Source: Candidatus Latescibacterota bacterium (lineage in GTDB: Bacteria > JAAXHH01 > JACQVL01). From it: a stretch of DNA of 5,720 nt. Below the pieces are notes generated by a model, which was given only the letters and a program-made list of their open reading frames with translations, did no database searches and was not told where the DNA came from. The DNA lies in assembly GCA_016209865.1 (NCBI GenBank), contig JACQVL010000032.1:1-5720 (forward strand), read 5' to 3'. Position numbers and translations under genes: made by a program. Of this stretch, positions 1,849 to 5,720 are shown piece by piece. Position 1 is the first letter of the stretch. Each line of letters begins with the position of its first letter.

Positions 1849-2880
1849 ATGCAGTCATTGCCGTTATTGCCGACGACCGTGATCGGAAGCTACGCCACGC
1901 CGAGCTGGCTCTGGACCGCGATGGAGGAGATCAAGCACGGCCGGTACGGGACGACCGATCTCAACGAGACATACGACGACGCGGTGCGGATGGCCATCGG
2001 GGATCAAGAGCGGGCCGGGGTGGACATCATCAGCGACGGGGAGATGCGCCGGTTCTTCTTCGTCCAGAATTTCTACCGGAAGATCGAGGGGCTGGAGGAG
2101 CTCGAGCCGTTCCGGAAGACCGGGCTGTACGCGTACGACAGCGTCCCCCGGTACCGGCCGGTCGAGAAGATCACCGTCCCGCACGGCCTGGGAATCGTCG
2201 AAGAGTTCACCTTTCTGAAGGAGAACACTCAGAAGCGCATCATCGCCACCTGCCCGGGCCCGCTGACCCTGACGATCCACCTCCATCTCCGCAAAGGCGG
2301 GGCGTACGCCGACCGGCTGGAATTGGCGAACGACCTGGCCGGAGTGGTCAACGCGGAACTCAAAGCGCTCGTCGAGGCGGGCGCGGACTACGTCCAGATC
2401 GATGAACCATCCTCCGCCATCATCCCCGGCGACCTCCGCGACTGGATCGCGCTTATCAACCGGGCGATCGACGGGGTGAACGCGAAGATCGGCCTCCACA
2501 TCTGCTTCGGCAACCTGCTCAGCCGGCCGCGAGGAAAACGGACGTACCGGTGGATGTTCCCGGCCCTGCTCGACGTGAACTGCCATCGCTTCCTGTTCGA
2601 GTTCGCCAACCGGGAGTTGAGCGAGATCGAGATGTGGAAAGACGTCGGGGACGACCGGGAATTCGCCGCCGGACTGGTTGATGTGAAGTCATTCTACGTC
2701 GAGTCCCCGGAGGACGTCGCCGAGCGCATCCGAACCGCCCTGAACTCCATCCCCGCCGAGAAGCTGTACATCACCCCGGACTGCGGCTTCTTCCCCGTCC
2801 CGCGCTGGCTGGCCTTCCTGAAGCTCAAGAATATGGTGGCGGGGACGAAGATCGTGCGGAAAGAATTGGGAGTGGAATGA
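1849..2880 (+). CDS. MetE-like zinc methyltransferase (C-terminal catalytic domain only)
   Basis: This 343-residue cytoplasmic protein corresponds to the catalytic C-terminal half of cobalamin-independent methionine synthase (UROD/MetE-like barrel). Canonical MetE has about 750 residues; its N-terminal half is missing here. The N-terminal motif TTVIGSY (9-15), SDGE (62-65) and IDEP (184-187) are present. All four thiolate-activating zinc ligands can be placed: H217 and C219 (GLHICFGN), E251 (FLFEFAN) and C312 (PDCGF). The protein should therefore activate a thiol such as homocysteine for methyl transfer. The family's TGPxTxLxW segment reads CPGPLTLTIHL (135-145) and lacks the Trp, and the folate-tail contacts of the N-terminal domain are absent. 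The methyl donor may thus not be methyl-tetrahydrofolate; stand-alone core MetE proteins elsewhere use methylated corrinoids. The stop overlaps the sulfatase-like start by 4 bp. The true acceptor is uncertain. Confidence 0.92.
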   Translation: MQSLPLLPTTVIGSYATPSWLWTAMEEIKHGRYGTTDLNETYDDAVRMAIGDQERAGVDIISDGEMRRFFFVQNFYRKIEGLEELEPFRKTGLYAYDSVPRYRPVEKITVPHGLGIVEEFTFLKENTQKRIIATCPGPLTLTIHLHLRKGGAYADRLELANDLAGVVNAELKALVEAGADYVQIDEPSSAIIPGDLRDWIALINRAIDGVNAKIGLHICFGNLLSRPRGKRTYRWMFPALLDVNCHRFLFEFANRELSEIEMWKDVGDDREFAAGLVDVKSFYVESPEDVAERIRTALNSIPAEKLYITPDCGFFPVPRWLAFLKLKNMVAGTKIVRKELGVE

Positions 2881-4226
2881 ACATCCTCCTCATCGCCGTC
2901 GACACGCTCCGGGCGGATCACCTCAGCGGCTACGGCTACCCCCGGCTGACGAGCCCGCACATCGACGAGTTAGCCCGTGAGGGGACGCGGTTCACCGGGA
3001 TGATCGCGCCCCACATCCCGACGAGTCCGAGTTTCACGACGATCCTCACCGGCCACGACATCATGAGCCATCAGATCGTGTCCCAGGGCGGGGCGGTCGA
3101 CCTCGACCCGGCCGTGCACACCCTGGCCGAACTCCTCCAGCGCTCAGGCTACTTCACCGCCGCAGCGGACAACCTGAAGCGCTGGTTCGTCCGCGGGTTC
3201 GACGTGTACGAGAGCTACGCGTGGGACCGCGACCCGGCCACACCCTGGCGCAAGGCTGAAGCGGTGAACCGCGCCGCCCTCGACGCGCTCAACCGGTGCG
3301 CCAGCCAGGAGAAACCGTTCTTCCTGTTCGTCCATTACTGGGATCCGCACACGCCGTTCCTCCCGCCGCCGCCGTTCGACCGGATGTTCTACGAAGGGAA
3401 CGAGCGCGACCCGGCCAACGACAGCATGGGGCCAGTCTTCGCGTTCGAACCGTTCACGCAGTACTTCCAGAGCTGGATGGGTGGGGTGACCGACATCCGC
3501 TTCCCCATCGCGCAGTACGACGCGGCCATCGCATACGCCGATGCCTGTCTCGCCCATCTGCTGACCCGGTACAGGGAGTTGGGACTGGAAGGCGAGACGC
3601 TCGTCATCCTCCTGGCTGACCACGGGGAGACGATGGACGAGCACGCCGGGTACTTTGACCATCATGGCCTGTACGACCACAACCTCCGCATCCCGCTCAT
3701 CCTGACATGCCCCGGCACGGTCCCGGCCGGCCGTGCGGTCGATGGGATGGTCTGCACGATGGACATCGCCCCGACGGTCCTGGATTTCATCGGCCATGCC
3801 GACGTTGTCCGCGAGGAACGGATGACCGGGCAGAGCGTCCTCCCCCTCCTCACGAACGGATCGCACGATGGCCTCTACGACGCGCTCTTCCTGACGGAAT
3901 GCACCTGGATGCGCAAGCGCGGCGTCCGGACGCATCGGTGGAAGCTGATCGAGGCGATGGAGACCGATTTCCACGGCTTCCCGCCGGTCGAGCTGTACGA
4001 CCTCCATGAAGACCCCCGTGAGCAGACGAACAGCGCAGCGGAATATCCCGACGTGGTGAGCAACTTGCACGCGCGACTGATCGACTGGACGGAGCGCCGA
4101 CTGGCGGAGACGGGCAAGCCCAACCCGATCGTCGAGCAGCGGGTGAGCCTCACACGGCTTGGCCCGCTGACGGCGACCGTGCCGGACAATCAACGGTACG
4201 ACCCGGGCGTGAAGACTGGGAACTAA
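2877..4226 (+). CDS. Sulfatase-fold (alkaline phosphatase superfamily) hydrolase with Thr nucleophile
   Basis: This 449-residue protein has the sulfatase N-terminal domain. It starts directly on the first strand (MNILLIAVDTLRADH), with D9 as a metal ligand and no signal peptide, so it should be cytoplasmic. Further active-site elements are H153 and H158 in HYWDPH, D248-H249 in LADHGE, the HHGLYDHNLRIPLIL stretch (262-276) and K356 in THRWKLI. The ELYDLHEDPREQTN segment is the usual sulfatase C-terminal signature. The nucleophile motif, normally C/S-x-P-x-R, reads TSPSF (49-53), so T49 replaces the formylglycine precursor and F53 replaces the Arg. The GKWHLG motif is also missing; the stretch after GYFTAA reads DNLKRWF (98-104). 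Thr is the nucleophile in phosphodiesterases and phosphoethanolamine transferases of this superfamily, so a phospho- or phosphonoester substrate is more likely than a sulfate ester. Translation is coupled to the MetE-like gene (ATGA, with GGGAG at 2868-2872). Confidence 0.93.
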   Translation: MNILLIAVDTLRADHLSGYGYPRLTSPHIDELAREGTRFTGMIAPHIPTSPSFTTILTGHDIMSHQIVSQGGAVDLDPAVHTLAELLQRSGYFTAAADNLKRWFVRGFDVYESYAWDRDPATPWRKAEAVNRAALDALNRCASQEKPFFLFVHYWDPHTPFLPPPPFDRMFYEGNERDPANDSMGPVFAFEPFTQYFQSWMGGVTDIRFPIAQYDAAIAYADACLAHLLTRYRELGLEGETLVILLADHGETMDEHAGYFDHHGLYDHNLRIPLILTCPGTVPAGRAVDGMVCTMDIAPTVLDFIGHADVVREERMTGQSVLPLLTNGSHDGLYDALFLTECTWMRKRGVRTHRWKLIEAMETDFHGFPPVELYDLHEDPREQTNSAAEYPDVVSNLHARLIDWTERRLAETGKPNPIVEQRVSLTRLGPLTATVPDNQRYDPGVKTGN

Positions 4227-5586: not shown

Positions 5587-5720
5587 CCATTGTGTTTTGA
5601 GGCTCATCCGGGATTTTGGCGGGAATCATGGGCAAGACTGTAGAGACGAGGCGGTGCCGCGCCCTGGGCGACTCACCGGGTCGCCCCTCATGAGATTTGA
5701 CGACCCAAATCGGTAAAAAC
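5568..5720. other. Non-coding 3' region bounded by an 11-bp direct repeat
   Basis: No reading frame of interest was found on either strand here. The stretch lies between two copies of ATCGGTAAAAA (5567-5577 and 5709-5719). It contains a weak AAAAC/GTTTT hairpin (5583-5598), a segment starting GGCTCATCCGGGATTTT (5601) that is faintly like an insertion-sequence end, a GTAGAGACGAGGC segment (5639-5651), a GC-rich hairpin and the 8-bp palindrome CTCATGAG (5687-5694). I see no clear intrinsic terminator, because no T-run follows the strong hairpin. Confidence 0.5.
5666..5686. repeat. GC-rich inverted repeat (7-bp stem, 7-base loop)
   Basis: GGGCGAC (5666-5672) pairs perfectly with GTCGCCC (5680-5686) around the loop TCACCGG. 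It stands about 100 bases after the last gene and is followed by CCTCATGAG rather than a T-run. It could be an atypical terminator, a transcript-stabilising hairpin, or part of a dispersed palindromic repeat. Confidence 0.7.

Follow-up and report, generated by a model that had tools for sequence, protein, structure and literature searches.

A conserved family of sulfatase-like proteins with a predicted threonine nucleophile and gene neighbours in sulfate activation

The window, by which we mean the whole 5,720-nucleotide stretch of Candidatus Latescibacterota DNA that was analysed, carries four genes in a row on the forward strand. A beta-phosphoglucomutase-like HAD phosphatase (305-1003) and a short-chain dehydrogenase (SDR, 1000-1767), both recognised by their open reading frames and domain matches, are followed by a MetE-like gene with the core of cobalamin-independent methionine synthase (1849-2880; PF01717, 126.9 bits). 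Directly downstream lies the gene studied here (2877-4226), which encodes a sulfatase-like protein of 449 amino acids with Thr at the nucleophile position (the Thr gene); its start overlaps the stop of the MetE-like gene in the sequence ATGA (2877-2880). We rejected the MetE-like gene as a conserved partner, because its occurrences are too few: the window and two Bacillaceae loci (L146 and L147), in which a distant homologue (24% identity) lies on the other strand near cysC. Two repeats were also observed in the window. A GC-rich intergenic repeat with internal inverted repeats (145-290, upstream of the HAD gene) is 86-88% identical to another locus of the same genome (L172, 1370-1491). About 120 bases at 5600-5720 recur in this genome at 99-100% identity (L045, 1207-1328, and L162, 4679-4779); they run to the contig end in L162, and are probably a dispersed repeat that breaks the assembly.

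The open reading frame of the Thr gene begins at the ATG at 2877, and its product has no signal peptide, the N-terminus being the first core strand of the structure model (residues 2-8). Pfam assigns the domains Sulfatase (PF00884, 147.5 bits) and SGSH_C (78.4 bits) to the protein, along with a short PF01663 match confined to residues 4-70. The label arylsulfatase was rejected, since the NCBIfam sulfatase equivalogs (PRK13759 and others) score far under their cut-offs. An AlphaFold2 model built from a 23-row alignment is confident (pLDDT 90, pTM 0.90) and has the fold of formylglycine (FGly) sulfatases and phosphonate monoester hydrolases (PMHs).

The sequence-only reading of this DNA had proposed that a Thr motif replaces the C/S-x-P-x-R signature of sulfatases, and this is borne out. 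Bases 3021-3035 read ACG AGT CCG AGT TTC, encoding T49-S50-P51-S52-F53, and in alignments to solved FGly enzymes (window IPTSPSFTTILTG; SISGPSRAVVLTG in 9s03 and APASPARATLYTG in 4uph) T49 (3021-3023) falls on the FGly or Ser and F53 (3033-3035) on the maturation and active-site Arg. T49 is also the first residue of helix 49-58 in the model, which is the usual nucleophile position. We assessed conservation in 119 family sequences that score above 400 bits and come from at least five bacterial groups. All of them carry the same Thr, which disposes of a sequencing error or a lone mutation, and position 53 is Tyr in 101, His in 12 and Phe in six, but never Arg; the Phe of the window is thus uncommon, as had been suspected, and Tyr is the rule.

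Eleven further residues are invariant in 119/119: D9, D156, H158, D248, H249, E251, H256, D261, H262, G264 and Y266. The predicted metal ligands D9, D248 and H249, rightly listed as retained by the sequence-only reading, lie in D9-T10 (2901-2906) and in the metal-site motif D248-H249-G-E251 (3618-3629); position 10, a second Asp in sulfatases, is Ser in 99 family members and Thr in 20. D156-P-H158 (3342-3350) corresponds to the 'PHxP' segment of sulfatases and contains its conserved His. Sequence and family alignment also agree that D98-F104 (3168-3188) stands in place of the GKxH (GKWHLG) segment, and R106 (3192-3194), a putative active-site residue, is kept in 118 of the 119 sequences. A last conserved cluster, H256 with D261-H262-H263 (3642-3665; position 263 is His in 109 and Cys in 10), lies where FGly sulfatases have their active-site Lys (Lys375 of AtsA). 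Here FDHHGLYD of the window aligns with FDKRFMYE, so that D261-H262 fall on the D-K pair conserved in 'WFDKRFMYE' and H262 on the Lys itself, and in a wider alignment the sulfate-site Lys shifts by at most one residue relative to D261-H262. By these alignments the window protein has neither the active-site Lys nor the Lys-x-His motif of FGly sulfatases. K356 had been mistaken for an active-site remnant; it is a general C-terminal Lys, near-invariant across the aligned sulfatases as well, and is therefore uninformative on the active site.

A Thr in every family sequence, with no Arg, no Lys and no Lys-x-His, argues against a FGly sulfatase, and judging from these residues the protein is almost certainly not a formylglycine enzyme, with Thr49 as its probable nucleophile. 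To this extent, and given the invariant metal residues, the earlier expectation of a probably active protein with different chemistry is supported; the phosphoesterase chemistry attached to it is a possibility. It is scarcely credible that the protein is a classical FGly sulfatase in which Thr matures by an unrecognised route. The fold, the annotation and the sulfatase-rich superfamily would agree with such a route, but Cys or Ser, Arg, Lys and GKxH are all missing, and oxidation of Thr would yield a ketone rather than FGly, whose formation from Thr has never been shown (PMC5066984). The SulfAtlas authors found Thr in 30 of 59 PF00884 seed sequences and did not expect FGly from those (PMC5066984). 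Loss of the classical sulfatase residues might instead mark a catalytically dead binding or regulatory protein, but this is quite improbable, because the metal-site and pocket residues stay invariant in all 119 sequences, which span several phyla and fall below 40% in overall identity.

The protein had been treated as an isolated case; it is in fact one member of a large, conserved and unstudied family that is widespread in bacteria. We define this Thr-type family by Thr49, [YFH]53, D261-H262-[HC]263-G264, R106, E341-[CAS]-x-W344 and a score above 540 bits against a profile built from 11 members; the window protein has all of these residues and scores 695 bits. In the sets first sampled, most family members exceeded 540 bits and all other PF00884 proteins fell below 285 bits. 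When more genomes were sampled, more distant members appeared at about 450-540 bits, as did a small related group, mostly PTTPGW, at 370-396 bits. Of the genomes sampled, 48/64 in the Latescibacterota phylum have matches at E <= 1e-100, as do 96/291 in the phylum to which a Fimbriimonadaceae genome belongs and 26/301 in one further phylum. At the stricter family level, eight of 299 Bacillales genomes carry the family, each with a pair of genes. Relatives are found in two Latescibacterota genomes (60% identity), on a Paenibacillus cellulositrophicus plasmid (45%) and in Lederbergia panacisoli (43%, two copies). No family relatives were found on viral contigs, and PADLOC gave no match to a known anti-phage defence protein.

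The genome of the window (3.75 Mb in 356 contigs, 83% complete) encodes four PF00884 proteins, none of them with a Cys nucleophile: PTSPSF in the window, PTTSAY (C217), PTQPSF (C268) and PTIPIR (C105). The last of these (L004, 1156-2526, reverse strand, on contig 105) is an otherwise canonical sulfatase with Thr for Cys, in which Arg and the active-site Lys (LKG) are kept. The same genome has three matches to PF03781, the FGE-type domain, which has other uses too.

The sequence-only reading had called for a structure model and a superfamily tree. In Foldseek searches the best matches to the confident model were PMHs and S1 sulfatases, with E values down to 2.4e-29, and VIA-align gave Z 41 to an S1_25 sulfatase over 352 aligned residues at 2.6 A. 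Neither a nucleotide pyrophosphatase/phosphodiesterase (NPP) nor a transferase appears among the best 50 structural matches listed, and no solved structure belongs to the Thr family, the best scoring 176 bits against the profile. Given this fold, and gene neighbourhoods (described below) that suggest sulfate activation and sulfotransfer no less than phosphorus, the earlier proposal of a phosphoesterase of the NPP or phosphoethanolamine transferase kind is at most a candidate reading. In a tree of 78 rows the Thr family forms a group (support 86/86), which clusters with Thr proteins of other types and with a Cys-type group in which [DE]-H likewise replaces the Lys. A 100/99 split divides this half of the tree from the canonical FGly sulfatases sampled, and forks inside the half stay open. 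The Thr and Cys groups meet in an open fork in a quick tree and in the 78-row tree alike, so that both a simple loss of Cys and the retention of an old Thr are possible histories.

Family genes are located in sugar operons, in the company of Gfo/Idh oxidoreductases, TIM barrels and ABC transporters. Subtype A, with the motif PTT-[SP]-[AG]-Y, adjoins genes for a Gfo/Idh oxidoreductase and for a TIM barrel resembling xylose isomerase in the genome of the window (C217), its relatives, Bacillota and other phyla. In Bacillota, A and B occur together in a single cluster under AraC regulation, which also encodes ABC transporters of the sugar or oligopeptide type. The window gene is of subtype B/C. 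In several lineages, at least four by our reading, family genes also lie near genes that make PAPS (Sat or CysDN, CysC) or use it (sulfotransferase), and they do so far more often than by chance. For example, the A/B cluster of four Bacillaceae extends to sat and cysC, separated in one case by the gene of an SLC13-type permease, and a Paenibacillus plasmid has cysC between its two Thr genes. Genome G393 has cysC, cysD and cysN directly after a set of three Thr-type genes, and the linkage thus involves two unrelated ATP sulfurylases, Sat in Bacillaceae and CysD-CysN in G393. Genomes G323, G957, G479 and G602 carry a Sulfotransfer_3 gene adjacent to the Thr gene or one gene away.

Neighbourhood statistics were drawn from 80 family-bearing genomes. 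In eight of the 80 a Thr gene has an APS kinase gene no more than 10 kb away (0.63 pairs expected), in seven it has a specific sulfotransferase no more than 2.1 kb away (0.15 expected), and in 7-8 the same sulfotransferase sits beside an APS kinase (0.11 expected); related genomes were counted apart here as well as in the comparison that follows. Window-type ThrB/C genes are present in 6/25 genomes with the sulfotransferase and in 45/55 without it (Fisher P 1.7e-6, a value that is too small because related genomes were counted apart), as if the two were alternatives. The direction is the same in every group where both classes occur, and we regard this anti-correlation as a lead, given that ThrA and ThrB/C were assigned by match length and that assemblies are incomplete.

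A small, distinct Sulfotransfer_3 family with the motif IGRGHSGTRAMS was also noticed (L276, 7861-8595; L282, 10806-11510; L290, 10461-11183; L153, 5730-6449). In 14 of 25 genomes its gene neighbours either an APS kinase gene or one of the Thr type, and we know of no description of this family. A literature search for Poribacteria with both sulfatase and sulfotransferase found no paper.

We propose that the window protein is an enzyme that works in the cytoplasm without formylglycine, on the fold shared by FGly sulfatases and PMHs. Its substrate would be a singly charged ester, whose central atom would be attacked by the alcohol group of Thr49, the first residue of helix 49-58. The resulting covalent Thr intermediate would then be transferred either to water or to the hydroxyl of an acceptor. 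D9, D248 and H249 would bind a single divalent metal, and the charged group may be held by H158 and H262, the latter in the region of the sulfatase Lys, perhaps together with R106. A pocket that has lost Arg, Lys and Lys-x-His makes a singly charged ester (a sulfate ester, phosphodiester or phosphonate monoester) likelier than a phosphate monoester. As to the group itself, the enzyme may remove sulfate from a sugar-like metabolite or move it on one; we tentatively place this full mechanism slightly ahead as the likeliest reaction, because PAPS genes occur as neighbours in sugar operons and the window subtype is mostly absent alongside the linked sulfotransferase. More specifically, the window subtype could be a sulfuryl-transfer enzyme, either a sulfotransferase or a sulfatase, that uses a plain Thr without formylglycine on an alkaline-phosphatase fold to do the job of the linked PAPS-dependent sulfotransferase of other genomes, which we regard as unlikely. 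Choline sulfatase with an unmodified Cys still turns over, if slowly (PMC6189696), so FGly is not strictly needed for turnover on this fold.

Several observations count against sulfuryl chemistry. No sat, cysC or sulfotransferase gene was found at the window locus, the only APS kinase gene of this genome lies away from it on contig 39, and for the majority of the family there is no PAPS gene in the vicinity. A sulfated Thr, moreover, has no elimination route of the kind open to formylglycine, and in work by Recksiek in 1998, to judge from its title (cited in PMC6189696), substitution of FGly trapped the sulfated intermediate. To our knowledge, all characterised Thr-nucleophile members of the superfamily, NPPs included, act on phosphorus. 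Among PF00884 proteins this applies to LtaS, EptA, MCR-1 and YejM, in which the Thr nucleophile stands beside one or more metals (PMC7576196).

Alternatively, hydrolysis of a phosphodiester or phosphonate is almost as likely. It is possible that the protein is a Thr-nucleophile phosphodiesterase or PMH whose substrate is a sugar-like metabolite with a singly charged phosphorus ester, and which forms phospho-Thr as its intermediate; the nearby sulfate genes would then serve other steps of the pathway. The phosphorus precedents and the PMHs at the head of the Foldseek matches are consistent with this, as are the few positive charges left in the predicted pocket, which would fit a singly charged ester, and the N-terminal motif DTLRADHLSGYGYPRLTSP, which resembles GETSRAENFSLNGYPRETNP of E. 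coli EptA. The metal His H249, too, has its counterpart in PMHs, as described for EfAS/PMH (PMC12421950). Phosphorus chemistry, however, leaves unexplained why sulfotransferase genes and genes of PAPS synthesis recur as neighbours. Context tips slightly towards sulfate, and precedent favours phosphorus.

Databases label these proteins sulfatases, and sulfatase counts serve to infer the diet of uncultured bacteria. For this family the label is unproven, as the residues that define formylglycine sulfatases are missing family-wide. If sulfate is handled, we know of no earlier route on this fold that dispenses with formylglycine; if phosphorus is handled, this would be a new family of soluble Thr phosphoesterases and a large annotation error. 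The PAPS-gene link is an unexpected tie to sulfate activation and offers a concrete handle on substrate and pathway. Thr proteins within PF00884 are already published, as the sequence-only reading had allowed, and what is new here is the genomic context.

Among known systems, FGly sulfatases (SulfAtlas S1, S1_25 module 6hr5; PF00884 with SGSH_C) share the fold over residues 1-412, the metal-site Asp and Asp-His, the His of the PH segment and the C-terminal subdomain, but have the Cys/Ser nucleophile, maturation Arg, active-site Lys and GKxH, all four of which the window protein lacks. PMHs (4uph, 2vqr), which are 24% identical at E 2.4e-29, have the metal His in common with it and carry FGly, Arg and Lys where it has Thr, Phe and His; of their metal site of Asp, Gln, Asp and His, the window protein retains D9, D248 and H249, with Thr10 instead of Gln. 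NPPs would share the Thr nucleophile, as alignment and helix position suggest. EptA, LtaS, YejM and OpgB (PF00884) resemble the window protein in the Thr nucleophile (predicted in the latter), in [DE][ST] after the first strand, in DHGE and in the xxHG His where sulfatases have Lys. These proteins, however, are membrane or periplasmic, whereas the window protein is soluble and has a sulfatase C-terminal subdomain; starting at the first core strand, it has no counterpart of the N-terminal transmembrane domain of EptA and LtaS, and its NCBIfam matches to this type are only weak and local. Nearer relatives, at about 30% identity, are found in the Cys-type 'EH/DH' group of PF00884 (haloarchaea, Bacillota and Streptomyces plasmids), which shares D215, Ser/Thr10 and [DE]-H in place of Lys but keeps CxPxR, and so probably FGly, and forms its own clade (100/100). 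The change of the sulfate-binding Lys to [DE]-His with CxPxR kept was observed at loci L078, L079, L080, L081 and L101-L116, and is common in haloarchaea and Bacillota. Finally, the TxPSH and WTxPS types of Planctomycetota and others also carry Thr at the nucleophile position, but occupy separate branches of the tree and score below 285 bits against the profile, compared with more than 540 for most members of the Thr family.
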